The position numbers and the translations under genes are program-made. Positions 7,194-52,698 of a stretch of DNA of 64,000 bases are shown one piece after another (positions within the stretch are counted from its first letter, which is position 1; each line of letters begins with the position of its first letter). This DNA is from an uncultured Spartobacteria bacterium (GTDB lineage Bacteria; Verrucomicrobiota; Verrucomicrobiia; Chthoniobacterales; Terrimicrobiaceae). The DNA is taken from NCBI GenBank assembly GCA_937919825.1, contig CALFPA010000050.1, positions 1-64,000 of the forward strand, in the 5' to 3' direction. The notes below the pieces were generated by a model that made no database searches, was not told the DNA's origin, and was given only the letters and a program-made list of their open reading frames with translations.

Positions 7194-7349
7194 GCGGTTT
7201 CTTTAGCACGGCTGGGGAATTCGGCAAACTGCGCCCGCTCGGCAAAAAACAGCGGAGGCATTTTTGTTTTGGTTCGGAAATCAGTTGTGCGCTTGTGGCA
7301 TTCGGTTTAGTTCATGCGACTTGGTCGGCGGTTCTGTCCGCCTTTACTC

Positions 7350-7862
7350 ATGGAAACAATAGCCTCACAAATCGAAGAGCAGATGCGCACGGTTGTGGTG
7401 GGCGTTGCCGATTTTAAAATCAGCACCGATCCGCTCACCTACCTCGTGACCTATGCGCTGGGCTCCTGCCTGGGGATCACTTTCTATGATGAAAAACGCC
7501 GCATCGGGGGTCTGCTCCACGCGATGCTTCCCAGTGCCAGCTTGCATCCTGGGCAGAAAATCCGCGAAGCGATGTTTCTCGATACCGGCATCCCAAAAGT
7601 CCTTTCGGCGATGATCCGCGTCGGTTCGAAGAAGGACGACATTCGCTGCAAGGTTTTCGGCGGCGCGCAACTCATGGCCACGGATAATTTTTTCCGCATC
7701 GGCTCCAAGAATATCGATATGTTCTACAAGCTCAGCCAAGAGTTGCAGCTCGATGTGGTGGCTTGGGAGATTAGCGGTCGAATCAATCGAACCATCCGCC
7801 TCGCCAACCATACCGGTGATGTGATTGTGAAAGTTCCCTCCAAACCCGAATTTATTCGTTGA
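7350..7862 (+). CDS. cheD: CheD, chemoreceptor glutamine deamidase
   Basis: 170-residue cytoplasmic enzyme that deamidates (or demethylates) glutamine/glutamate residues of chemotaxis receptors. The family core is intact: VVVGVADFKIS, TYALGSCLGI with the catalytic Cys (about 40), GGLLHAMLP with the catalytic His (about 57), and KVFGGAQLM. The start could be the ATG at 7350 (METIASQIEE) or that at 7383 (MRTVVVG). The longer open frame from 7314 lacks family resemblance at its start. The stop TGA overlaps the ATG of the next gene, so the two are coupled. No receptors, CheA or CheW lie in this window, but a CheB-like remnant is found at 21.5 kb. Confidence 0.9.
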   Translation: METIASQIEEQMRTVVVGVADFKISTDPLTYLVTYALGSCLGITFYDEKRRIGGLLHAMLPSASLHPGQKIREAMFLDTGIPKVLSAMIRVGSKKDDIRCKVFGGAQLMATDNFFRIGSKNIDMFYKLSQELQLDVVAWEISGRINRTIRLANHTGDVIVKVPSKPEFIR

Positions 7863-8731
7863 TGAAATCTGCTGCCGACTTCCAGACAGTCGTCGAGATG
7901 ACGAGGTCAATCCCCTGCGCACCTGCGATTTTACCGAAGCTTCTCCAGCTCACCGAGGGCAGTGCCTCCGATCTGGGAGAGCTCGAAATGCTCATCAGCC
8001 TGGATACGGGGCTCGCGACCAGCGTTCTCCGCACTTCGAATTCCGCCTACTTCGGTGGCACCCAGCGTTGCGACAACATCGCCGACGCCATCTTGCGTCT
8101 CGGGAGCAAAACCCTCTACCGCATCGCTGCCACCACGCTCACCGGTCGCTGGTTGGTCCATCCCGTGCGGGGCTATGGTTGGGAGCCGGGAGACCTCTGC
8201 CGCCACTCGCTCTGCGTGGCCATTTGCGCCGAGACTTTCGCCAAATCCACCCGCCTCGCCGAGCCCTCAACCGCCTACACGGCCGGCTTGATCCATGACC
8301 TTGGCAAATTCGCGCTCGCCTACGCGAACTTCAGCGCACTGGATGAAATCGCCAGTCGCGTGCCGGATGAATTTTCCACCTGGCGCGAGGCGGAGCTCGC
8401 CATCCTCGGCTACGATTCCGCGCAGGTGACTCAAGCGCTCCTGCAAAATTGGGGCTTTCCGGCTTCATTCGTCTCGGTGGGTTTCCACTATCAAAAGCCC
8501 TCCCTGGCTCCCGAAGAACACCGCAATCTCGCCACGCTGATTCACGCGTCGAAGCATGTCGCCACACAGCTCGGCTACGGCGTGGGGATTGACGGCTACT
8601 ACACCGATCCCGACGAGGAGGCGTTGAAAAAGGCTGGCTTCAAGGAGGCAGAACTCGACGCGGCGATTCCCGAAATCCTCCAAACCATCCAGAGATTCAT
8701 CAACCCGGCAGGGGAGATCAATTTCGCCTGA
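7862..8731 (+). CDS. HDOD domain signalling protein
   Basis: 289-residue protein with one HDOD domain (a catalytically inactive relative of HD phosphohydrolases) covering most of its length. Typical blocks are visible: LPKLLQLTEGSASD, IRLGSKTLYR-like helices, AYTAGLIHDLGKFAL, and GYDSAQVTQALLQNWGFP. HDOD proteins usually act in signalling, motility or biofilm control. It starts in a one-base overlap with the cheD stop (TGATG), so it is translated with CheD and probably works in the same pathway. That is an inference from position. Confidence 0.87.
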   Translation: MKSAADFQTVVEMTRSIPCAPAILPKLLQLTEGSASDLGELEMLISLDTGLATSVLRTSNSAYFGGTQRCDNIADAILRLGSKTLYRIAATTLTGRWLVHPVRGYGWEPGDLCRHSLCVAICAETFAKSTRLAEPSTAYTAGLIHDLGKFALAYANFSALDEIASRVPDEFSTWREAELAILGYDSAQVTQALLQNWGFPASFVSVGFHYQKPSLAPEEHRNLATLIHASKHVATQLGYGVGIDGYYTDPDEEALKKAGFKEAELDAAIPEILQTIQRFINPAGEINFA

Positions 8732-8734
8732 TTC

Positions 8735-9835
8735 TCAAAAACGAACCCAGGCCTTGGGTTGAACTTGGTAGTCGGGCAGGAGTGAACGGTCTTTCCAGCC
8801 TTTGTGGAAAACCGGAGTCGCGGATCCCGACATCGGCGGCACGATCCAGCTCCAATCGGCCGAGACAAGCCGACCGGCTTTTTTTTCGCGGTCGACAAAA
8901 TCCATGAACTCCGAGGACGCCCGGTGGTGATCCACGATCCGCACGCCGGCCTTGGAATAGGAATGGAGGACGGCGGCATTGAGTTCGACGAGCGCGCGGT
9001 CTTTCCACAGCGAGGAGTCACGAGAGAGGTCGAGGCCCATGCGGTCGGCGATGGCGGGGAGCGCATCGTAACGCCCGGTATCGCCTAGATCGCGCGAACC
9101 AATCTCGGTTCCCATATACCAGCCGTTGAACGGCGCAGCGGGAAAATCCACGCCGCCGATGCGCAGAACCATGTCCGAGAGGATCGGAACCGCATACCAC
9201 TTCAGGCCGAGTTCTGAGAACCACGGAAACTCGGGGTGCTCCAGGGCAACCTCCAAAGCTTTTGGTGGAGGGTAAAGCCGGGGAGACTCGCCGCGCTTTT
9301 GAATGATCCACGGCAGCAAATCGAACCGCGTGCCCGCACCCTGCCAGCCGAGTTTTTGGGCCTCGCGGGTGAATTCCACATTCTTCGGGTCGCCGAGAAT
9401 CGTGCCGTCCGGTTGCTCGTAGCCGGCGTAGCCGAGGAGTTGGTGATTCCAAATCCGAACGGTCGCCCCTTCGGATGTCGCGGGAGGGAAAACCGTAACC
9501 AGGGGTTGGATTTTCCCGCCATTCGTTCCAATCTCCAAATGCTCGAGCAAAGCCGCATTTATATGATCGGGATCGCTCATATCTCGAAGGTCGCGGACCT
9601 TCAGGGAACTCCAAAAGAGGCGACCGATGCAGCGGGCGTTGTTGCGCCAAGCCATTCGCGCTCCGTGTTCCAACTCTTTGAATTCCAAATTCCAGCCCCC
9701 CGTTTTTTCGATTTCCGAAAAGGCGTTTTCTTTGCGGGAGGCGAGGTGTTTGGCGCTCCAATGCTTTTCCTGCGCGATAGTGTCGAGGAAATCCTCGGCC
9801 TCGCGGCGGCGGTCGGCGGGAGGAGTCGGAGTCAC
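8735..9835 (-). CDS. nos: Bacterial nitric oxide synthase, oxygenase domain
   Basis: 366-residue haem enzyme making NO and citrulline from arginine. It has only the oxygenase domain, so it borrows electrons from cellular reductases. The signature blocks of bacterial NOS are all present: MAWRNNARCIGR with the haem-ligating Cys (about 68), IWNHQLLGYAGYE, LKWYAVPILSDM, PFNGWYMGTEIG with the arginine-binding Glu (about 243), LWKDRALVELN, IVDHHRASSEFM, and DWSWIVPPMSGSATPVFH. The start is the GTG at 9835, whose GTGA overlaps the fabH stop (another in-frame GTG is at 9838). The longer frame to 10069 runs inside fabH. Length equals the Bacillus enzymes. Its place at the end of a fatty-acid operon is unusual. 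Confidence 0.95.
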   Translation of the reverse strand: MTPTPPADRRREAEDFLDTIAQEKHWSAKHLASRKENAFSEIEKTGGWNLEFKELEHGARMAWRNNARCIGRLFWSSLKVRDLRDMSDPDHINAALLEHLEIGTNGGKIQPLVTVFPPATSEGATVRIWNHQLLGYAGYEQPDGTILGDPKNVEFTREAQKLGWQGAGTRFDLLPWIIQKRGESPRLYPPPKALEVALEHPEFPWFSELGLKWYAVPILSDMVLRIGGVDFPAAPFNGWYMGTEIGSRDLGDTGRYDALPAIADRMGLDLSRDSSLWKDRALVELNAAVLHSYSKAGVRIVDHHRASSEFMDFVDREKKAGRLVSADWSWIVPPMSGSATPVFHKGWKDRSLLPDYQVQPKAWVRF

Positions 9836-10848
9836 CACTCGATGACGGCGCTGGCGTAGGTGAGACCTCCGCCGAAAACCACGAGAAGGATCGGATCGCC
9901 AATCTGGAATCGGCCCGAGCGGGCGGCTTCGTCGAGGGCGATGGCGACGGCGGCGGCGGAGGTGTTGCCGTATTTGTCGAGATTGATGTGGAACTTGTCC
10001 AAGCCCAACCTCATGCGATCGGCCATGGCTTCGATGATTCGGAGATTGGCTTGGTGGGGAATCACGCACGCGATGTCATCGGCGGTGATTCCGCAACGCT
10101 CGAGAACGACGCCCGCAGCGCGCATCATGGAGGTGACGGCCTGCTTATAAGTCTCTCGGCCATTCATGTGGAGGGTGTTGAGATTTTTCTCGATGTTTTC
10201 GGCCGTGGTCGGGCAGGCGCACCCGCCGCCGGGCATATGAAGAATGTCGGAGAGATTTCCATCACTCGCCATGTAGGTCGTCACGATGCCGCGCGAGCCC
10301 GGGCGGTGTCGGAGGATTGCCGCCCCCGCGCCGTCGCCAAAGAGGACGCAGGTGTTGCGGTCGGTCCAATTCACGATGCTGCTGAGTTTGTCGGCGCCAA
10401 TGACCAGGATCGTTTCGTTCGTTCCGGTGGCGATGAATTGGTGGGCGATCTCGAGGCAGTAGAGAAAACCCGAGCAGGCGGCGCTGACATCCATGCAGGC
10501 GGCATTTTTCGCGCCGATGAGTCTTTGGACATGGCAGGCGGTGGAGGGAAAAAAATTATCCGGCGTGACCGTGCCGACGAGAATCAGATCGATCTCTTCG
10601 GGCTTGATCCCCGCGTTTTCCATCGCGGCTTGCGCGGCCTTCGCGGCCATGTGGCTCGTGAATTCGGTGTCGGCGGCGAGGCGGCGCTCGCGGATGCCGG
10701 TGCGCTCGACGATCCATTGATCTGAAGTTTCGACCATCGATTCGAGGTCGGCATTCGTGAGCACACGGTCGGGCACATAACTGCCCGTGCCGATGATGGA
10801 GGCGGATCGGCTAAGTTTCGGCGGGATGTCGCGCAGGGACTTTTTCAT
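9832..10848 (-). CDS. fabH: Beta-ketoacyl-ACP synthase III
   Basis: 338-residue condensing enzyme that joins acetyl-CoA and malonyl-ACP to start fatty acid synthesis. The catalytic triad is in place: Cys (about 123) in DVSAACSGF, His (about 264) in VIPHQANLRI, and Asn (about 294) in KYGNTSAA. The start at 10848 (MKKSLRDIPPK) gives the normal N-terminus leading into IIGTGSYVPDRVLTN, and overlaps the end of plsX by 38 bases. Its stop overlaps the NOS start. It is the fourth gene of the classic yceD-rpmF-plsX-fabH cluster. Confidence 0.96.
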   Translation of the reverse strand: MKKSLRDIPPKLSRSASIIGTGSYVPDRVLTNADLESMVETSDQWIVERTGIRERRLAADTEFTSHMAAKAAQAAMENAGIKPEEIDLILVGTVTPDNFFPSTACHVQRLIGAKNAACMDVSAACSGFLYCLEIAHQFIATGTNETILVIGADKLSSIVNWTDRNTCVLFGDGAGAAILRHRPGSRGIVTTYMASDGNLSDILHMPGGGCACPTTAENIEKNLNTLHMNGRETYKQAVTSMMRAAGVVLERCGITADDIACVIPHQANLRIIEAMADRMRLGLDKFHINLDKYGNTSAAAVAIALDEAARSGRFQIGDPILLVVFGGGLTYASAVIEW

Positions 10849-11845
10849 GGAGTGGCTGCATCGCCTCGACGATGCGGGTGTTGATATTCTGTTCGATGGC
10901 GGTGCGAGCCGCGCGGATGGCATTGCGAAGGGCTCGGACGGAAGAATTGCCGTGGGCTTTGATGCAAATGCCGTTCACGCCAAGGAGCGGGGTGCCGCCG
11001 TATTCATCGGTGCTGGTGCGGGCCTTCACGGCGTCGAACGCACCCTTGGAAAGAAGCGCCCCAGCCATGCGGATCGGGGATTTTTTCAACTCGTCCTTGA
11101 TCCAGCCGACCATCGACTTCGCAAGGCCCTCGATGGTTTTTAAAAAAATATTTCCAGTGAATCCGTCACAAACGACGACCTCGACGGGCTTCTTAAAAAT
11201 CCCGTGTCCCTCGACATTTCCGGCGAAGGCGATCGGCGCGGATTGAAGGAGTTCGTGGCATTGAAGGCAAAATTCGGTGCCTTTGCCGGGTTCGGTGCCG
11301 ATGTTGAGCAAGCCGACGCGGGCGCGGTTCCCGCCGACGACGGCTTGATAGTAAACACTCCCCATGACGGCAAAGCCGACGATGTGTTTCGGGCTGGGGT
11401 CGATATTTGCTCCGCCATCGATGAGCAAAAAAACGCCGCCCTCGGCGGGAATCAACACGCCAAGTCCAGCGCGGTCGATGCCGGGCAGGGTGCGGAGTTT
11501 GATCGTGGCTGCAGCGACGAGCGCGCCGGTGTGACCAGCAGAAACCACCGCCGCCGCTTGGCCGTCTTTCACCAAATCCACCGCGCGGCTGATGGAGGAA
11601 TCTTTTTTTCGGCGCACGCTATCGAGACCGTTGTCGGTCATGTCCACGACTTGCGAGGCGTGGTGGAAAGAAAGGCGCGACTCGATCCCTGCAGTGTTGT
11701 GCTTGCAGAGTTCGGCGCGGATTTTTTCCTCGTCGCCAACGAGAATCAGCTCGATATCGGGAAAATCACGCAGGGCCTGAACGGCGCCCGCGACGGGATT
11801 TTGCGGGGAGAAGTCCCCTCCCATGGCGTCGAGGGCGATTTTCAT
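10811..11845 (-). CDS. plsX: Phosphate acyltransferase PlsX
   Basis: 344-residue enzyme forming acyl-phosphate from acyl-ACP, the first step of phospholipid synthesis through PlsY. It begins MKIALDAMGGDFSPQNPV, the family hallmark, and has the conserved blocks SAGHTGALVAAATI, LIDGGANIDPSP, VGLLNIGTEPGKG, and VCDGFTGNIFLK. Length is normal. It lies 24 bases after rpmF and its end overlaps fabH. The 3' part past the family core (VEAMQPLHEKVPAR) is short and unremarkable. Confidence 0.96.
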   Translation of the reverse strand: MKIALDAMGGDFSPQNPVAGAVQALRDFPDIELILVGDEEKIRAELCKHNTAGIESRLSFHHASQVVDMTDNGLDSVRRKKDSSISRAVDLVKDGQAAAVVSAGHTGALVAAATIKLRTLPGIDRAGLGVLIPAEGGVFLLIDGGANIDPSPKHIVGFAVMGSVYYQAVVGGNRARVGLLNIGTEPGKGTEFCLQCHELLQSAPIAFAGNVEGHGIFKKPVEVVVCDGFTGNIFLKTIEGLAKSMVGWIKDELKKSPIRMAGALLSKGAFDAVKARTSTDEYGGTPLLGVNGICIKAHGNSSVRALRNAIRAARTAIEQNINTRIVEAMQPLHEKVPARHPAET

Positions 11846-12058: not shown

Positions 12059-12523
12059 TTAATTATTTTTATTTTGCAGCTTGTCCAATGCATCCCATGC
12101 CGAATCCCGTTTTTGGGCCGGTTGCCTGTCAAAACCCGGCACGCCTTCACGCGAGGCAGGGCATTTCGGTTCTCCATTACTGTCGCACCTGGGATGCGCA
12201 GGCAGGTTGAGGTGAATATCCTCCCGCGCCAACGGGGTCAAGTCTATCAACTCGCCACTCGGCAAGTCCATCTGCAGGGAAAAGGAATCCACCACGATAT
12301 CGCGCTCGAAATTTTCCAAGCAGGACACGCATTCCATCCGAACGCGCACGGCCAGTCGACCGGTGGCGAAAAGCCCTCCGTCGCTCAATCCGACATCGAG
12401 CGAGTAGCTCAACGGAGAGACGGCCGTGACGCCCGCCTCCTCGAGGCCGAGCGGCTCCGCATTTTCCTCTCCCTCCAAATGCAGGGTGTCCCCTTCGGGA
12501 ATCTGGCGCAGGTGAAGTTTCAT
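12059..12523 (-). CDS. yceD: YceD family (DUF177) protein, linked to 23S rRNA/L32
   Basis: 154-residue protein of the DUF177/YceD family, which in other bacteria and plants is needed for 23S rRNA accumulation. The family core is seen in the middle: VRVRMECVSCLENFERDI with its CxxC, then FSLQMDLPSGELIDLTPLAREDIHLNLPAHPRC. The ATG at 12523 (MKLHLRQIPEGD) is preferred over the frame's first start at 12562. It sits directly before rpmF, as is usual for the family. Confidence 0.85.
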   Translation of the reverse strand: MKLHLRQIPEGDTLHLEGEENAEPLGLEEAGVTAVSPLSYSLDVGLSDGGLFATGRLAVRVRMECVSCLENFERDIVVDSFSLQMDLPSGELIDLTPLAREDIHLNLPAHPRCDSNGEPKCPASREGVPGFDRQPAQKRDSAWDALDKLQNKNN

Positions 12524-12574
12524 GATCAAAAATCTCTTCGAATCCTTTCCAATCTCAGCCAACGGCGACGGCGA

Positions 12575-13822
12575 TCAAAGACCTTTTTCGACGATCCTGA
12601 AAAGATCCGTGTTGTCGAGAAAGCCGTGGATTTTTTCGGAGCCCGGGCCGGTGGCGACGACCACAGCGTCCTCGGCTGTGCCAATCGCAGCGGCGCGCTT
12701 GCTCGCGGCGGGCTCGGTGGATACGGGCCCCTCTGGCGTGACGCGCGTGCCTGATTCGGGACCGGTGGACCAGGTGATCGATGGCACACCTTGCGCGTTT
12801 GTTCCCAAAAGTCCGGCGCCTTTGTCGTTTCGGAAGGGGTATCCATTCAGGCGAAGTCCCCCGACATTTCGCTTTCCGGCGACGATGATCAGCGCGTCTT
12901 CGCCCGCATAAGCTTTGGCTTCCCTCACGGCATCATCCAAGGCGAGGAGTTCGCGCAGCGTCCGCTCGCCCTCGTTTTGCGTTCCCGATTTTCCAGCGAG
13001 GGCGGCATCGACGACCAATAAATATCCGCGCTGGTTGTATTGGAGCAATTGGATCGCGTGGCGGACCATCGTGGCGAGCGAAGGTTGGGTGGCGGCCGCC
13101 GCGACTTCATCGGCAAACGCCAAGTTTCCCATGGCAAAAAGGCCAAGGGTTTTTGGGCTGTGCCAGCGCGGGGTTTGCTCGAGTTCCGTCTGCGTGAGGG
13201 CCACATCGTAGCCTCGGTCGCGCATTTCTTGGAGGAGGTCTCGTCCATCTTGACGGCGGCCGCCTTGGAGCGTCGGCAAAAAATCCGCCGCGCCACCGCC
13301 GAGAAGAATATCGATGGTGGGATTCTCCGCGAGTTGCCTGGAGATCGTCATGTAGTCGAGTGGGTCGGAAGTGGAGGCGTAAAAGGCCGCCGGCGTGGCA
13401 TCCGTGAGCGAGGCATTGGAGACAAGCCCCGTCAGGCGACCGCACCGAGTGGCGAGTTCCAGAAGATTCGGGAGTTTGGTATTTCCACTCACCACGCCAA
13501 GCGAGCCGTTGTTGCCCTTGCGGCCCGTGCCGATTGAGGTCGCCGCGGCCGCCCCATCGCAAACAGCGAAATCATTCGCGTGGGTCGTGGCGAGAGCGAG
13601 GTAGGGAAAAGACTCGAGAGCGAGGCGGTGATCGGCGCCGCCCTCGTAGTTCCGGGCCGGTGTGAGCACGGAGGGAGTCAGGTTGTCCGCTAAAAAAAGA
13701 ATCACGGCGAACGGCCGCTGCACGACCCATTTCACATAAAACACACCTCCAAGTCCGAGAAAAACGAGCAGGCAAAAAAGAGCGAGCAGCCGGTTGCGAA
13801 ATTTTTTGCTCATGGAAAACAT
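12575..13822 (-). CDS. Alkaline phosphatase homologue lacking catalytic residues
   Basis: 415-residue exported or membrane-anchored protein with the alkaline phosphatase (PhoA) fold. An N-terminal TM/signal (LLALFCLLVFLGLGGVFYV) precedes the core. Fold landmarks are clear: FLADNLTPSV, DATPAAFYAS, and the C-terminal GPGSEKIHGFLDNTDLF. But the phosphorylated Ser of the usual DSA motif is Gly here (CDGAAAATSIGTG), the usual ADH zinc site reads VAGKRN, and the E..D...H zinc block is degraded (VVDAALAGKSGTQ). I infer no phosphatase activity, perhaps a binding role. The ATG at 13822 follows a GGGGGA stretch. The frame continues to 14074 but that part overlaps tRNA-Gln on the other strand. Confidence 0.82.
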   Translation of the reverse strand: MFSMSKKFRNRLLALFCLLVFLGLGGVFYVKWVVQRPFAVILFLADNLTPSVLTPARNYEGGADHRLALESFPYLALATTHANDFAVCDGAAAATSIGTGRKGNNGSLGVVSGNTKLPNLLELATRCGRLTGLVSNASLTDATPAAFYASTSDPLDYMTISRQLAENPTIDILLGGGAADFLPTLQGGRRQDGRDLLQEMRDRGYDVALTQTELEQTPRWHSPKTLGLFAMGNLAFADEVAAAATQPSLATMVRHAIQLLQYNQRGYLLVVDAALAGKSGTQNEGERTLRELLALDDAVREAKAYAGEDALIIVAGKRNVGGLRLNGYPFRNDKGAGLLGTNAQGVPSITWSTGPESGTRVTPEGPVSTEPAASKRAAAIGTAEDAVVVATGPGSEKIHGFLDNTDLFRIVEKGL

Positions 13823-13863
13823 TTGCGTCCCCCGCGCTCCGTCGGCAATATGAATCTCCGTTT

Positions 13864-13937
13864 TGCCCTGTGGTGTAATGGTAACACAGTGCCCTTTGGA
13901 GGCATTATTCATGGTTCGAGTCCATGCGGGGCAGCCA
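13864..13937 (+). tRNA. tRNA-Gln (anticodon TTG)
   Basis: Full cloverleaf: acceptor TGCCCTG pairs with CGGGGCA (one G-T pair), D arm with AATGGTAA loop, anticodon stem GTGCC/GGCAT around loop CTTTGGA giving anticodon TTG, T arm CATGG-TTCGAGT-CCATG, discriminator G and encoded CCA. 74 bases with CCA. It is divergent from the alkaline-phosphatase homologue. Confidence 0.96.
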
Positions 13938-14198
13938 CCCAGTTCAGATCTAGCTTTTCGGGTGACTCCCTTTAAAAAATCGAAAAGCGGGAAAGAAAAA
14001 GGGAAATTTTCCACCAACTTCCATCGCTGAATATCCAAGTTCACCGATGCTTTCTGCGTGAGGTTTTCAAGCAAGCCGGCGCATCGAGAACAGTTTTTTT
14101 ATCTCCTCAAAATTTTCTTTTTCGACAACGACGCGCTTAGGACCTCTGTGAATCTATCGTGAACTCCCCTTCCTGCTCGATTAGGTTCTCCTCGCCTC

Positions 14199-18203: not shown

Positions 18204-19346
18204 TTAGGCCGGTTGCGGGGTGGGGAGCACTTGCCAGGTGTCGAGCCAGGCGCGCAGGGATTTGCGGAATTCCCCGGCCGCCTCTTGCACTTGCTTTTGG
18301 AGTTCAGCCATTTCGCGGCGGGATACTTCCTTTTGGCCGGCGAGGACGGCGCGGTATTCGACCAGCAATTCCTCCCAAGAGAGCAACGCCTCGTTCATTT
18401 GAGCGCGGGCGGATTCGACCATCGCATGGAACGAGTCGGCCACAGGCGTGGCTTGCAATTTCGCCTCGAGCTGGCGTTCGTGCTCCCGCACCTCGGCTTT
18501 GATGATTTTTTCCTCCGGCACGGTGCGGAGACCATGCGCGAGGCCGACTTTTTCGAGGAGCCAGATTGTCCATTTGGTAGGATCAAACTGCCAGGGCTTC
18601 ACACCGTTGCGATAATCGTGCTGAAATTCGTGGTGGAAGTTGTGGTAGCCCTCGCCAAATGTGAAAATCGCCATGAGCAGGCTGTCGCGTGCCGAGACAT
18701 TGCTGGAATACGGGCGCTTGCCGATCCAGTGGCATAGGGAATTGATGCAGAATGTCATGTGATGCACGAACACGACCCGAGCCACGCCGGCGATGAGGAA
18801 GGCTCCGAGTGCCGCGGTGGGTCCGCCATAGACCCAACCGATGGCCGTTGGCAGAACAAAGCTCATAAACATCGCGATCGGCACATAATATTCATGCTGG
18901 AGCCAGGCGAGTTTGTCTTTTTGCAAATCCCGCACCCAAGTGAGCGGCGATTCAGGGCCGCGACGGAAGAGCAGCCAGCCGATGTGAGCGTGGAAAAGAC
19001 CCCGGTTGATATCGTAGGGATCCTCTTCGTGATCCACATGTTTGTGGTGCCGGCGATGGTCCGCACACCAGCCAAGAGCGGAACCTTCGAAGGCCGCCGC
19101 ACCGAAAAGCAGCGTGTAGAGCCTCACGATCGGACTTGCTTGGAAGGTGAGGTGGGAAAAAAGCCGATGATAGCCCAGCGTGATGCTCATCGCCGTGGAG
19201 ATGGCGAAGAAAAGGAATAGTGCGATTTGGAAGAGATCGAGCCCGTAGTTCCAGAGATAATACGGGACCGCCGTGCAAGTAGTGGCAAAGGTTCCAATAA
19301 GAAACACACTGTTAGTAACCCGGATTTTGCGGAGTAGTTTTTTCAT
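18204..19346 (-). CDS. Acyl-CoA/fatty acid desaturase with C-terminal coiled coil
   Basis: 380-residue membrane di-iron enzyme that inserts a double bond (delta-9 type) into fatty acyl chains. The three histidine boxes are present: GYHRLFSH, DHRRHHKHVDHEEDP, and EGYHNFHHEF. Several TM helices surround them. After the last box the protein carries about 100 residues rich in charged heptads (EREHERQLEAKLQ onward, MAELQKQVQEAAGEFRKSL) that look like a coiled coil and are not part of the standard enzyme. Convergent with the TPR gene. Confidence 0.92.
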   Translation of the reverse strand: MKKLLRKIRVTNSVFLIGTFATTCTAVPYYLWNYGLDLFQIALFLFFAISTAMSITLGYHRLFSHLTFQASPIVRLYTLLFGAAAFEGSALGWCADHRRHHKHVDHEEDPYDINRGLFHAHIGWLLFRRGPESPLTWVRDLQKDKLAWLQHEYYVPIAMFMSFVLPTAIGWVYGGPTAALGAFLIAGVARVVFVHHMTFCINSLCHWIGKRPYSSNVSARDSLLMAIFTFGEGYHNFHHEFQHDYRNGVKPWQFDPTKWTIWLLEKVGLAHGLRTVPEEKIIKAEVREHERQLEAKLQATPVADSFHAMVESARAQMNEALLSWEELLVEYRAVLAGQKEVSRREMAELQKQVQEAAGEFRKSLRAWLDTWQVLPTPQPA

Positions 19347-33717: not shown

Positions 33718-36700
33718 TCACCCGCCTTTACGGCAGTTTTCGAACATTTCGGCGGGCATGGGGTGACCGAGTTGCCAGACCATCTTGATCGGGCGTTCGC
33801 TTTCGTGGCTCACATAATTGGCTTGGCCGAGATAGGTGAAGGGAAGAGTGAAATCGTTCTGCCGCTTTTTTTCTCGGGCAAAAACCAGGATTCTGTAACC
33901 CCGGTTGGCATGATTGATCAGATTTTGTCCTGTAGGGCTTGCCTCCGAGGTATTGGATTGTGATTCCCAATGAATTCTATCTGAACTGATTGGGTAGTCT
34001 GCATACATGGTGCTTAGAGAAAATTCGTTTTCGGATTTTTGAAATGTAACTAGCAGCGCGTAAGCACGATGGTTCGGAAAATGCAAAACGCCAACGCCTT
34101 GTTGCCCTGGACTGGTCATTGAGGTTGCGCCCATTAGGGACTGAATGCTGGAATTAGTGTAGTTTGCATGGACTTCGAAAGGCGTGGCATCATTCAGGCT
34201 CAGGACGCGTGTGCGATCATTCACAAGATCTAGAATTTCAATGCAATCGGAAAGGATGGTCTGGTTGGCAGCAAGTTTACTGAACGATTCCTTGATGGTG
34301 CTGAATCCAAGCTGGGCACCGGGTTTTCCCCACAATTGGAAATGGATCGCCATGGCGCTCGAGTCGGCTTTTTCGATGGCCTCCTCAATGTTGCTGGCCT
34401 GAAGAAGTAAAAGAACATGACGCAGGCGGGCGATTCCGCTTCGCCCGGACATGCCGGCCAGTTTGATCAATCCTGCGCGGAGCTTTTCCAGATCGGGATC
34501 CGTTGGCGTCTCTTGCAAGCGGGCGGCGGACTTGAGTTCCGACCAGGTTTTGTTTTTGCCGAGGATTTCAAGGGCTTCGTAGCCGTGGTGGTTGGCAAAG
34601 TTTTTAAATGTTGGGGCACTCTGCGTGTCCGATTGGAAGGTTTCGAGATGTTCGATGAGTTGGGCACGGAGGTTGTCGAGATTCGCTTTGATGTTCCGAA
34701 GCACATGTTCGCGGGCGACTTTTTCAAAGCGGATGCTGCAACCGGCCGGGAGGTGTGGAAAACCAGACTCGAGTTCTCGAACGATATTGAAGCGGTCCTT
34801 GCGGAGGAGTGCTTTGAATTTGCGGTCAACCCGATAGCGTTTGTGGAGATGCCCAACGAAATCCAGAACAGTCAGGCATTCCTTGCCTGGGTGCAGGCGC
34901 AAGCCTCGCCCGAGTTGCTGCAGAAAAACCGTCAAGCTATCCGTGGGCCGGAGGAATAAAACGGTATCTACCTCAGGAATGTCCGCCCCCTCGCTGAGCA
35001 CATCGACCGTAAAGAGAAAGTTCAGCTCTCCTTGGCGAAACTTTTTCAATGTTTCGGCACGGTCTTGGTCGATGGTTTCGCCGATGAAACATGCCGATGG
35101 GAGACCTTGCGCATTGAATTGCTCGACCATGAACTGAGCGTGGCCAACGCTCGCGCAAAATCCGATGCAGCGGACACTGCGGATGTCGTTCTGGTATCTC
35201 TCGAGCGCTGAAACAATCGCCCGCAGGCGCTGCTCGGCCAGAGCGTGGGCCCCGGTGTAAACATTGGTCAACTCGGTTTGGTTGAATCGCCCCTGCGTCC
35301 AGAATCTATCGGCATCCAGCGACACCGGATCCTCAACCACAAAATAGTGAAATGGCACGAGGAGCTTTTCGTCGAGGGCCTCGGGAAGACGAATCTCAGC
35401 AGCGAAGCGATTGTGGAACTCCGCCACGACGCTGCTGCCGTCCATTCGCTCCGGTGTAGCCGTGAGGCCCAGTAGAATGTTGGGCTCAAAGTCTTGGGTG
35501 ATGGTTCGATAGGTCGGAGCCGTGCTGTGATGCGCCTCGTCGATAACGATGATGCGGTAGAAATCCTTTCCGAGGCGCTGGAGCAGACCCCGGTTTGCCA
35601 GCATGCCAATCGAGCAGAACAAATGGTCATGGCGCTCCGGTTCATGGTTGCCCACCAAGAGATCACCGAAGTTCGGGTCGCGAAGAACAGTCCGATAAGT
35701 GAAGAGGGCTTGTTTGAGGATTTCCTCGCGATGCGCCGTGAAAAGCAGGCGCGGCCTTTGACCGAGGCGATCGCTTTGGCGTTTGTAATCAAAGGCGGCG
35801 ACAACCGTTTTCCCAGTTCCCGTCGCGGCAACCACAAGATTTCGGCGATAACCGGCGGCCCGCTCGCTTTCGAGGGCTTCAAGGATTCGTTCCTGAAAAG
35901 CATGCGGCTTGATTTCAAAGAACACCATCGGCAGTCCGGCATCGGATTTCTGCTTCGCGTAGCTGATGGCTTCGCGCAGGACTTCTGGCTGGGAGGGGTC
36001 GAACGGAATGAATTCCCGGCTGTTCCAGTATGTCTCAAATTCAACCCGGAATTTTTCAATGATGTGGGGCTGGTCCTGCGCGGTCACTTTCAGATTCCAC
36101 TCAAGACCCTCCGTCATAGCGGCATCCGACATATTGGATGAGCCGATGTAGGCCGTGGAAAATCCTGACTCGCGGTGGAAGTGGTAAGCTTTTGCGTGAA
36201 GTCGGGTGCGTTTCGTGTCGTAGGACACGCGAACCTGTGCTGTGGCAAGTCGGGCAATCCATTCAACAGCGCGGGCATCCGAGGCGCCCATGTAGGAAGT
36301 CGTGATCAAGCGGATCGGCACGCCGCGATCCGAAAGCTCGCACAATGAGTCCGCGAGAAGGCGCAAGCCAGACCACTTGATGAAAGAAACGAGAATGTCC
36401 ACGCGATCGGCGGATGCCATTTCCAGTGCCAACTCGTTGGCGAGGGGTGGATCGGTCTGCGCCCCAGTAAAGAGACTGCTTTCGGCAAGCGGGGTGAGAG
36501 GACGAGGAAGACCGGGCTTGGCGAGATAGGACGGTGTGATTTCGGTCAGCAGTTTCGGCTCAGGGGACGGAAGGAAATCGCCGCTGGCATGTTGCATTTC
36601 CCCGAGGGAAAAGATTTTTTCGAGGAGTTCGTTGCACAGGGCGAGGCGGTCTGCGGTGGAAGTCTTTTGGCGCAATGCTGCTTCGATGAAACGGGAAACA

Positions 36701-36843
36701 AAGGCCGAGTATTTCGAAGGCTCCTCCTCGGGATCGATCTTTGAGAAAATCGAGCGCAATTCCGGGTGCGCTTCGAGAAAACTTTCCAGTCTCTTGCTTT
36801 GAACCTGCTCGTAGATGCCGGGGAGAAAGTTGCCGGAACTCAT
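33718..36843 (-). CDS. PLD-nuclease/SF2 helicase/DUF3427 protein
   Basis: 1041-residue protein with three parts. The N-terminal phospholipase-D-type nuclease has an HKD motif at about 213 (LHAKAYHFHRESG then GSSNMSD). The superfamily 2 helicase has Walker A ATGTGKT (about 342), DEAH in VIDEAHHSTAP (about 433), motif III TATPERMDG, and motif VI GRGLRLHPGK (about 645). The C-terminal DUF3427 domain is about 300 residues. A single HKD suggests it works as a dimer. Such proteins are inferred DNA-processing or anti-phage effectors. The ATG overlaps the stop of a MutT gene (ATGA), so both are made together. Confidence 0.9.
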   Translation of the reverse strand: MSSGNFLPGIYEQVQSKRLESFLEAHPELRSIFSKIDPEEEPSKYSAFVSRFIEAALRQKTSTADRLALCNELLEKIFSLGEMQHASGDFLPSPEPKLLTEITPSYLAKPGLPRPLTPLAESSLFTGAQTDPPLANELALEMASADRVDILVSFIKWSGLRLLADSLCELSDRGVPIRLITTSYMGASDARAVEWIARLATAQVRVSYDTKRTRLHAKAYHFHRESGFSTAYIGSSNMSDAAMTEGLEWNLKVTAQDQPHIIEKFRVEFETYWNSREFIPFDPSQPEVLREAISYAKQKSDAGLPMVFFEIKPHAFQERILEALESERAAGYRRNLVVAATGTGKTVVAAFDYKRQSDRLGQRPRLLFTAHREEILKQALFTYRTVLRDPNFGDLLVGNHEPERHDHLFCSIGMLANRGLLQRLGKDFYRIIVIDEAHHSTAPTYRTITQDFEPNILLGLTATPERMDGSSVVAEFHNRFAAEIRLPEALDEKLLVPFHYFVVEDPVSLDADRFWTQGRFNQTELTNVYTGAHALAEQRLRAIVSALERYQNDIRSVRCIGFCASVGHAQFMVEQFNAQGLPSACFIGETIDQDRAETLKKFRQGELNFLFTVDVLSEGADIPEVDTVLFLRPTDSLTVFLQQLGRGLRLHPGKECLTVLDFVGHLHKRYRVDRKFKALLRKDRFNIVRELESGFPHLPAGCSIRFEKVAREHVLRNIKANLDNLRAQLIEHLETFQSDTQSAPTFKNFANHHGYEALEILGKNKTWSELKSAARLQETPTDPDLEKLRAGLIKLAGMSGRSGIARLRHVLLLLQASNIEEAIEKADSSAMAIHFQLWGKPGAQLGFSTIKESFSKLAANQTILSDCIEILDLVNDRTRVLSLNDATPFEVHANYTNSSIQSLMGATSMTSPGQQGVGVLHFPNHRAYALLVTFQKSENEFSLSTMYADYPISSDRIHWESQSNTSEASPTGQNLINHANRGYRILVFAREKKRQNDFTLPFTYLGQANYVSHESERPIKMVWQLGHPMPAEMFENCRKGG

Positions 36844-49718: not shown

Positions 49719-50159
49719 TCAACCTTGGGCGACAGCGCCCTCGCGGATGGCGGCGGAGAAGGTTTCCCAAGCCAGCGTCGCGCATTTCACGCGCTGGGGA
49801 AAACGGTGCACGGCTCCGAGCGCGCGCAGGGCGGTGAGGCTTTCGATGGCAGGCGCGACCTCGCCCGTGGAGGCGAGTTTACGAAAGTCTCCCGCCAGCG
49901 CGGTGGCCTCGTGGGTTTTCAAGCCCGTGACGGCACCGGTCATGAGCGACCCCGACGCCGTGCAAATCGCGCACGCGCTCGCCTGGAAACGCACGGCCTC
50001 GAGCTGGTCATCCACGATCCGCAGCTCGACCGAAAGCTCGTCGCCGCAAAGCGCGTTGTGGCCATCGGCGCGATGGGTGGGGTTTTCGAGCGGGCCGTGG
50101 TTGCGCGGGCGCCGCGAGTGCTGGAGCAAAATCTCCTGATAAAGTTCGTCCGTGTTCAT
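49719..50159 (-). CDS. sufU: SufU-type Fe-S/zinc-dependent sulfur acceptor
   Basis: 146-residue protein of the SufU/IscU-like family that receives sulfur from SufS. The conserved cysteines are present: ALCGDELSVEL, ACAICTASGSLM, and VKCATLAWETF. It starts with ATG overlapping the stop of sufS (ATGA). The SufS-SufU pair is the Gram-positive-style arrangement. sufB, sufC and sufD are not in this window. Confidence 0.92.
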   Translation of the reverse strand: MNTDELYQEILLQHSRRPRNHGPLENPTHRADGHNALCGDELSVELRIVDDQLEAVRFQASACAICTASGSLMTGAVTGLKTHEATALAGDFRKLASTGEVAPAIESLTALRALGAVHRFPQRVKCATLAWETFSAAIREGAVAQG

Positions 50160-51370
50160 GGATTGAAAAACCGGATCGCCTCCGCGATGGCATCCACCAA
50201 TCGGTCGGATTCGGCTGGCGTGTTGTAAAAATGGAAGCTCGCCCGCGCAGAAGCCGGGGCGCCGAGCTTTCGCATGAGTGGCTGCGCGCAGTGGTGACCA
50301 GCCCGAATAGCGACTCGGCGGTCGTTGCAAAAAAACGCAAGGTCGTGGGCGTGAACTCCCTCGACGGCGAAAGTGACGAGGTGCGCCCGCTCGCCGCTGG
50401 GCCCGAAAACGCGAACACCGGGGAGAGCGCGGAGCTTTTCGGCGGCGTATTCGGCGAGGGCCGAGGAGTGGGCTGCGATGCTTTCAAGGCCGACGGAATC
50501 GACAAAATCCAGCGCGGCGTGGAGCCCGGCCGACTCGATGATGGCAGGAGTTCCTGCCTCGAAGCGCGCTGGCGGTGGACGGAACTTCGCGCCGGTGAAT
50601 TCCACGCGGTCCACCATCTCGCCGCCGAATTGCCACGGCGGCATCTGCGCGAGGATTTCGTGGCGGCCGTAAAGAACTCCGATTCCCGTCGGGCCGCACA
50701 TTTTGTGGGCCGAGCAGGCGAGGAAATCGCAACCGATCTCCTGCACATCGACAGGGATGTGCGCCGCGCTCTGGGCTGCATCGATCAATGTCGTCACGCC
50801 GTTTTCCCGCGCGAGGAGGCAGAGATCCTTGACCGGATTTTCGACAGCCATGGTGTTCGAGATATGAGTGAAGGCGAAAATCCTCGGGCGCTCGGCAAGC
50901 AAGGTCCGGGCGGCATCGAGGTCGAGGCCCGCGCCGTTTTCCAGCACCGGCACATATTTAATCGTCGCCCCGGTTCGTGCGGCGAGTTGTTGCCAAGGCA
51001 CCATGTTGCTGTGGTGCTCCATCTCGGTCAGCAGGATCGTGTCGCCGGACTTCACATTCTGCCCGCCCCACGCAAAGGCGACGAGGTTCACCGCCTCGGT
51101 CGTTCCGCGTGTAAAGACGATCGATTCCGCCGTGGCCGCATTGAAAAACTTCCGCGCCCGTTCTCTCGAGCCCTCGTAAACTGCCGTCGATCGCTCGCTG
51201 AGTTCATGGATGCCCCGGTGGACATTCGCGTATTCGTGGCCCGCGAACTGCCGCATCCGCTCGATTACTGCGCGCGGCTTTTGGGTGGAAGCACCGTTGT
51301 CGAGATACGCGGCCGGATTGTCTCCATCCAAAAAAGGAAACTCGCGGCGCCACCGCTCCACATCGGCCAT
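50156..51370 (-). CDS. sufS: Cysteine desulfurase, SufS/group II
   Basis: 404-residue PLP enzyme taking sulfur from cysteine for Fe-S clusters. The PLP Lys is in LACSAHKMCGPTGIG and the catalytic Cys in AIRAGHHCAQPLM. LDNGASTQKP and EMEHHSNMVPW are typical for SufS. The ATG at 51370 (MADVERWRRE) is used. The frame is open far upstream through the chrA end, so the true start is not certain. The gene is 70 bases after chrA. Confidence 0.93.
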   Translation of the reverse strand: MADVERWRREFPFLDGDNPAAYLDNGASTQKPRAVIERMRQFAGHEYANVHRGIHELSERSTAVYEGSRERARKFFNAATAESIVFTRGTTEAVNLVAFAWGGQNVKSGDTILLTEMEHHSNMVPWQQLAARTGATIKYVPVLENGAGLDLDAARTLLAERPRIFAFTHISNTMAVENPVKDLCLLARENGVTTLIDAAQSAAHIPVDVQEIGCDFLACSAHKMCGPTGIGVLYGRHEILAQMPPWQFGGEMVDRVEFTGAKFRPPPARFEAGTPAIIESAGLHAALDFVDSVGLESIAAHSSALAEYAAEKLRALPGVRVFGPSGERAHLVTFAVEGVHAHDLAFFCNDRRVAIRAGHHCAQPLMRKLGAPASARASFHFYNTPAESDRLVDAIAEAIRFFNP

Positions 51371-51438
51371 CGAGGCAAGCTTGGAATTTTTTTCGCTCAA
51401 AGCGGCGGCATTCAACACAGGCCGACGCTTCGAAACAA

Positions 51439-52698
51439 TCACCGAACAGGCAGAAAACCCAAAACGCCGCCGAGCCAGCCTGCCAAACCGCAAAGCACAA
51501 TCACCGGCACAAGGGCCGAGTGGAATTTTCTCAGCGTGAAAAACGCCGCCAGCGCCAAAACGCCGACGAACCAATCCATCGACCCTCCGCCCGGCCACAG
51601 GGCGTGCCGCGTGAAATCCACTGCGAGGTTCAGAACCACCCCGACCACGGCAGCCGTGATGCCCGAGAGCGCGCCGGACAACCACGGCAGGGCAGTGAGT
51701 TTTTGAACATGCGGACCGCCAGCGAAAATAAAAAGAAACGACGGCAAAAAGGTCACCCAGGTCGTGAGCACGGCGCAAAGCACTGCGGCGGTGGCAGGCG
51801 AGAGGGTTCCCGGGTTTTGCCAGCCGCCAACGAAGCCGACGAATTGCAGAACCATGATCAACGGCCCGGGCGTCGTCTCTGCGAGCGCGAGGCCGGAAAT
51901 CATCTGCGAGCTGCTCAGCCAGCCGTGGGTTTCGACCGCTTGCTGCGCGACATATGGCAGCACCGCGTAAGCCCCGCCGAAGGTCACCACCGCCGCTTGG
52001 CTAAAAAATAAACCCATCCGCGCGGGCACGCTCTCCCAGCCCAGCCAGGCAGCCACGCCGAGAACCGGAGCCCACCAAAGTGCGAGGCACACTCCCGCCG
52101 TCGCCAAAGTCTCCCGCCAGGGCGTCGAGGGGAGTTTTTCAAAGGAAACGGGAGGGTGCGAGCGGTTCGACAGCCAACCCACCAAACCCGCGACGGCGAG
52201 GATTCCGACAAACGGGGCGTTGAAAATCTGCAGTGCCAAAAAGGACGCCACCGCCAAGCCCCAATGCAGCGAGGACTTCAGCGCCCGCCGACCCAAGCGC
52301 GGCACGGCCTCAAAAACCAGCGCGACGACCGCCGCCGCGAGTCCCCGGAAAACATCGGCGAGCCAAGGCAGATGCCCGCCAGCCATGAAGAGCCAACTCA
52401 GCGCGAGAAGAAGAAACGCGGCCGGCAGCACGAACAGTGCCCCCGCTGCGATGCCGCCTTTCGTGCCGTGGAGACGCCAACCGAGCCAAGTCGCGAGTTG
52501 TTGCGCCTCGGGGCCGGGCAGGAGCATGCAAAAATCCAGCGCCTTCGAAAAATCCCCCTCCGCGATCCAGCGCCGCCGCTCGACGAGTTCGCGATGCATG
52601 ATCGCGATTTGACCAGCGGGCCCTCCAAAGCCAATGCACCCGAGCTTCACCCAAAACCTCGCCGCCTCTCGAAAAGTGGGCTTGGAATCGGTCGGCAT
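51439..52698 (-). CDS. chrA: Chromate transporter (CHR family, long form)
   Basis: 419-residue inner-membrane protein of the CHR family, made of two homologous halves of about six helices each. Each half has its signature: FGGPAGQIAIMHRELVE with LPGPEAQQLATW in the first, and FGGAYAVLPYVAQQAVE with AETTPGPLIMVLQFVGF in the second. It would expel chromate or a related oxyanion. The ATG at 52698 (MPTDSKPTF) is used. It starts 15 bases after the proS stop. Confidence 0.92.
   Translation of the reverse strand: MPTDSKPTFREAARFWVKLGCIGFGGPAGQIAIMHRELVERRRWIAEGDFSKALDFCMLLPGPEAQQLATWLGWRLHGTKGGIAAGALFVLPAAFLLLALSWLFMAGGHLPWLADVFRGLAAAVVALVFEAVPRLGRRALKSSLHWGLAVASFLALQIFNAPFVGILAVAGLVGWLSNRSHPPVSFEKLPSTPWRETLATAGVCLALWWAPVLGVAAWLGWESVPARMGLFFSQAAVVTFGGAYAVLPYVAQQAVETHGWLSSSQMISGLALAETTPGPLIMVLQFVGFVGGWQNPGTLSPATAAVLCAVLTTWVTFLPSFLFIFAGGPHVQKLTALPWLSGALSGITAAVVGVVLNLAVDFTRHALWPGGGSMDWFVGVLALAAFFTLRKFHSALVPVIVLCGLAGWLGGVLGFLPVR

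Follow-up and report, generated by a model that had tools for sequence, protein, structure and literature searches.

Why would a bacterium carry the gene for a nitric oxide synthase (NOS) directly behind its genes for a ribosomal protein and for fatty acid synthesis? The question is raised by a window of 64,000 nucleotides, the whole stretch of DNA analysed here, from a genus of freshwater Verrucomicrobiota. The reasons for which many bacteria keep a NOS, and the controls that act on its expression, are poorly known, and the fixation of nos behind genes of this kind points to a housekeeping, growth-linked production of NO over a stress or toxin chemistry.

The window contains the order yceD-rpmF-plsX-fabH on one strand with short gaps, an arrangement that is conserved in the family. 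On the minus strand, yceD (large-subunit rRNA accumulation protein, 12059..12562, PF02620) is separated by 6 nt from rpmF (ribosomal protein L32, 11870..12052, PF01783), which lies 24 nt before plsX (phosphate acyltransferase, 10811..11845, PF02504, 340 bits); plsX in turn overlaps fabH (β-ketoacyl-ACP synthase III, 9832..10848, PF08541/PF08545, TIGR00747 407 bits) by 38 nt. The original prediction made nos (8735..9838, minus strand) the last gene of this run, a placement that is borne out here, and the Pfam matches agree with the names that it gave to the genes upstream. On the far side, 3 nt separate the stop codons of nos and of a convergent HDOD-domain gene (7859..8731, plus strand, PF08668), which is overlapped by cheD (7314..7862, plus strand, PF03975); these two genes are outside the operon. 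At the other end, 12 nt lie between yceD and a gene of the alkaline-phosphatase family (12575..14074, minus strand, start uncertain, PF00245, 187 bits). This gene may be a further member of the transcript containing yceD, which may therefore begin farther upstream than was first proposed. A consensus promoter scan returned 0 promoters and a terminator scan gave matches at the level of shuffled sequences, both being uninformative here; a terminator-like stem at 8760-8744, within the end of nos, was discarded because it stands at chance level against shuffles. The 444-aa frame of the mechanical ORF list, which begins inside fabH, was also rejected as the nos gene. A gene for a fatty acid desaturase (18204-19346) lies some 4 kb upstream of the operon, in the vicinity of genes for a TPR protein and an AhpC/TSA peroxiredoxin.

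The nos product matches PF02898 over 353 of 366 residues (498 bits, E 1.5e-149), residues 11-363 covering positions 7-361 of the 362 in the profile, which corresponds to a full-length NOS oxygenase domain. The chain can be aligned almost from end to end with solved NOS oxygenase domains, bacterial as well as mammalian, and PF02898 is the sole domain in the 367 aa, with no fused reductase or globin domain. In an alignment of 18 sequences, Trp63, Arg68, Cys69, Tyr240 and Glu244 are conserved. Matched to 2flq, Cys69 is the heme ligand, Trp63 its partner and Glu244 the arginine-binding residue; all three are invariant, in agreement with the earlier remark that the catalytic residues look intact. 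Judged from its sequence, the window protein is assigned to the type I (oxygenase-only) bacterial NOS and its gene is intact. It shares with the type I enzymes (B. subtilis 1m7v, 2flq, S. aureus) the single oxygenase domain, the heme-cysteine motif, the Glu for arginine and the bacterial-type His in WNHQL, as well as the absence of a reductase domain and of an N-terminal zinc hook.

It differs from these enzymes at two positions of the active site. Leu219 occupies the NO-release gate, where the typical bacterial NOS has Ile218 and the mammalian NOS have Val, and Asp249 stands where the typical bacterial enzyme has Asn and most mammalian NOS have Asp; the Ile gate and the Asn by the substrate, which are typical of type I enzymes and not strictly defining, are both absent from the window NOS. 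The gate residue (Ile/Val) has been linked to NO release, and the Asn contacts arginine (PMC9500659). Leu219 and Asp249 are common to the genus and to its marine sister clade. Among the NOS sequences compared, the gate Leu is found in these two groups and in one other sequence (L057), and Asp at the second position also occurs in a few others. With their Leu/Asp active site, these proteins offer a natural variation on the two residues that have been studied for their part in NO release and inhibitor selectivity. For the rest, this is a known, ordinary-looking enzyme at a new, lineage-fixed genomic position.

That position is a property of the genus. Of the 16 genomes examined, 13 possess nos, and every one of these has it directly behind fabH in the same orientation, so that the adjacency is beyond chance and the objection that it might be confined to this genome falls. 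The three genomes without nos are uninformative, because they are incomplete (64-82%) and are also devoid of a true fabH match. The four sister genera (ten genomes) offer a clean contrast: yceD-rpmF-plsX-fabH is found in 10/10 and nos in 0/10, and in the two of these genera whose sequence was read by eye, as opposed to scanned for domains, a tatD-like gene follows fabH. Farther away, some 120 other bacterial NOS loci, drawn from several phyla, contain neither fabH nor plsX within flanks of 1.5-6 kb. The fabH-nos pair is a real, lineage-specific arrangement. Shared ancestry accounts for much of its conservation, and the sole argument for selection on the adjacency is the changed downstream edge: the gene that follows nos varies by species (cheD-HDOD, a ctpA-like protease, or another gene), and fabH-nos remains constant.

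The NOS phylogeny, a check named with the original prediction, groups the 13 proteins of the genus into a single clade (support 100/100), apart from their closest relatives, which come from marine Opitutales and Verrucomicrobiales. The main inner groups of this clade agree with the FabH tree, and the later inheritance thus looks vertical. Within the phylum, NOS occurs here and there (18 of the 388 genomes sampled), and the NOS from other families of the same order are placed elsewhere in the tree; the patchiness and the scattered placement fit repeated horizontal transfer. The view that bacterial NOS is known mainly from Firmicutes and Deinococcus no longer holds in the light of these 18 genomes and of a report of 2017 on freshwater Verrucomicrobia, where NOS was described in an Opitutae MAG and in "other MAGs", without adjacent toxin genes (PMC5673642). 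These MAGs belong to the same phylum as the window; fabH is not mentioned in the passages of that report that were consulted. Replacement of nos by recombination in the window lineage was considered because the NOS identity between the window and G015 (71%) lies well under that of FabH (90%), and was set aside, a NOS clade of the window, G017 and G015 not being rejected (p-AU 0.27).

The dN/dS of nos, 0.06-0.18, reveals purifying selection, weaker than that on FabH or PlsX. Together with the frame, intact in all complete copies, and with the presence of the same junction in 13 separate genomes, it makes it scarcely credible that nos is a decaying or contaminating insertion, even if NOS copies do decay in the genus, as a broken second copy in one genome (G014) attests. 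This fragment (L014:1372-1803; G014:C4:241599-241868), about 43% identical to the window NOS, adjoins a fasciclin-like gene, and the same genome also carries an intact, fabH-linked nos.

Could the adjacency reflect a functional coupling, nos being kept because NO or its products act on fatty acid or phospholipid synthesis, for example by modification of the FabH active-site cysteine, or because both answer one signal? The maintenance of the pair across the genus, while the other flank of nos was rearranged, would be expected under such a coupling. The wider comparison speaks against it: the nearest NOS relatives (59-65% identity; marine Opitutales, Akkermansiaceae and Puniceicoccaceae) have no fabH or plsX in the flanks examined, and nos lies in unrelated contexts in the two loci whose surroundings were read; the 120 or so other loci agree with this; and the rate of evolution is higher for NOS than for FabH in most of the pairs compared. 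We consider this coupling improbable. A direct effect of NO on fatty acid synthesis is possible, with the position of nos as its sole basis. A bolder version, in which a growth-expressed NOS whose Leu gate alters NO release would control fatty acid or phospholipid synthesis, NO being a routine signal of growth rate and not a stress product, is a long shot. In one marine Opitutales locus (L080:5959-11628), a close relative of the NOS is followed by genes whose translations are FAD amine-oxidase-like, photolyase/cryptochrome-like and ferrochelatase-like.

How tightly, then, is nos bound to fabH? The junction in the window reads gag-tgg-tga, in which GTG occurs at 9838-9836 and at 9835-9833 and the fabH stop TGA at 9834-9832; the GTG start of nos is supplied by the last sense codons of fabH, GAG TGG, and the overlap is 7 or 4 nt by choice of GTG, for a protein of 367 aa (from 9838) or 366 aa (from 9835). 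The predicted GTGA overlap of the nos start with the fabH stop is real, the GTG at 9835-9833 meeting the TGA. The GTG located 3 bases upstream, which relatives have in common, would be an equally or more likely start, because this GTG at -7 is conserved in six genomes. Across the 13 genomes, the spacing ranges from -26 to +44 nt: six have the 7-nt overlap with a GTG start (two of them, the window included, also possess the second GTG of the 4-nt overlap), one has a 26-nt overlap with an ATG start, and six have a gap of 36-44 nt between the fabH stop and the nos ATG. What is conserved is the tight same-strand proximity and not the overlap of stop and start. This range of spacing is compatible with a common transcript for fabH and nos. 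The translational coupling put forward for the locus is too strong a claim: the overlap on which it was founded exists in 7/13 genomes, the window among them, but the gap and the ATG of the other six prevent its generalization. Neither the overlapping nor the gapped form of the junction shows, on inspection by eye, anything resembling a Shine-Dalgarno site.

In four relatives (L008, L009, L010 and L011), the 44-nt gap contains a small inverted repeat, ACGC..GCGT, which is conserved, lacks a T run and might serve to control nos in this subgroup. Because the overlap is not conserved and the repeat lies in the gap, a separate control of nos would be possible there. An incidental position of nos in the genus as a whole, with a promoter of its own in fabH or in the gap and a separate regulation, such as the response to oxygen or to the growth phase known from Staphylococcus aureus, seems to us rather unlikely. 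The gapped ATG junctions, four of them with the repeat, would favour it, as would the synonymous positions of the last 12 fabH codons, which are slightly more conserved than the mean in the nos-bearing genomes (rank 47 of 327 codon windows) and not in the nos-free ones (rank 316 of 327). This codon signal is weak, however, and the seven genomes in which nos overlaps fabH without any spacer argue the other way.

The explanation that we favour, with a probability of about 0.75, is a single acquisition of nos behind fabH in the ancestor of the genus, followed by its retention as the last gene of the transcript. A type I NOS would have been acquired once and inserted directly downstream of fabH, thereby becoming the terminal gene of the yceD-rpmF-plsX-fabH transcript, and would have been retained under purifying selection. 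Its expression would probably be set by the growth-linked promoter of the operon. Where the genes overlap, translation of nos would begin at the GTG within the end of fabH, through re-initiation or coupling; where a gap separates them, it would begin at the nearby ATG. The enzyme would convert arginine into NO and citrulline with the help of heme, reduced folate or biopterin, and a generic reductase of the cell. A pterin enzyme of the PTPS family is also present, but is so widespread as to be of little weight. Captured at the end of a constitutive operon, nos would cause NO to be made in any growing cell supplied with oxygen and arginine. Such hitchhiking on a growth-linked promoter would be enough to explain the placement of nos without a functional tie to fatty acid synthesis. 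Elsewhere, NOS contributes to the protection against oxidative stress and to the regulation of aerobic respiration (PMC9500659), roles that would suit a freshwater aerobe. The genomes of the genus gave no H-NOX sensor and no globin domain, and hence neither an NO sensor nor an NO dioxygenase of these kinds.

The staphylococcal nos-pdt operon offers a precedent. There, nos is the first gene and pdt the second, RT-PCR demonstrated that the two are co-transcribed, and low oxygen raises their expression (PMC4183505). In both cases nos is joined to a housekeeping biosynthesis gene in one lineage only; in the window operon, nos comes last. By this precedent, the pairing of nos with a gene of biosynthesis in a single lineage is no sure sign that the two are linked in function. 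The genus otherwise shares its gene order with the rpmF-plsX-fabH operon of many bacteria, and differs by nos as an extra last gene. A literature search for NOS together with fabH and plsX retrieved an unrelated proteomics paper and nothing on the pairing.

Two other features of the window deserve mention. At 33718-36843, a 1041-aa protein combining PLD nuclease, ResIII helicase and DUF3427 domains is encoded beside an AAA/DUF4143 gene, and the two might constitute a defence or restriction-like system. At 50156-51778, a SufS-like cysteine desulfurase of 540 aa carries an N-terminal extension of about 130 aa; its second-best NCBIfam match, below the model cut-off, is the family 2A encapsulin cargo desulfurase, and this enzyme could have an encapsulin partner.
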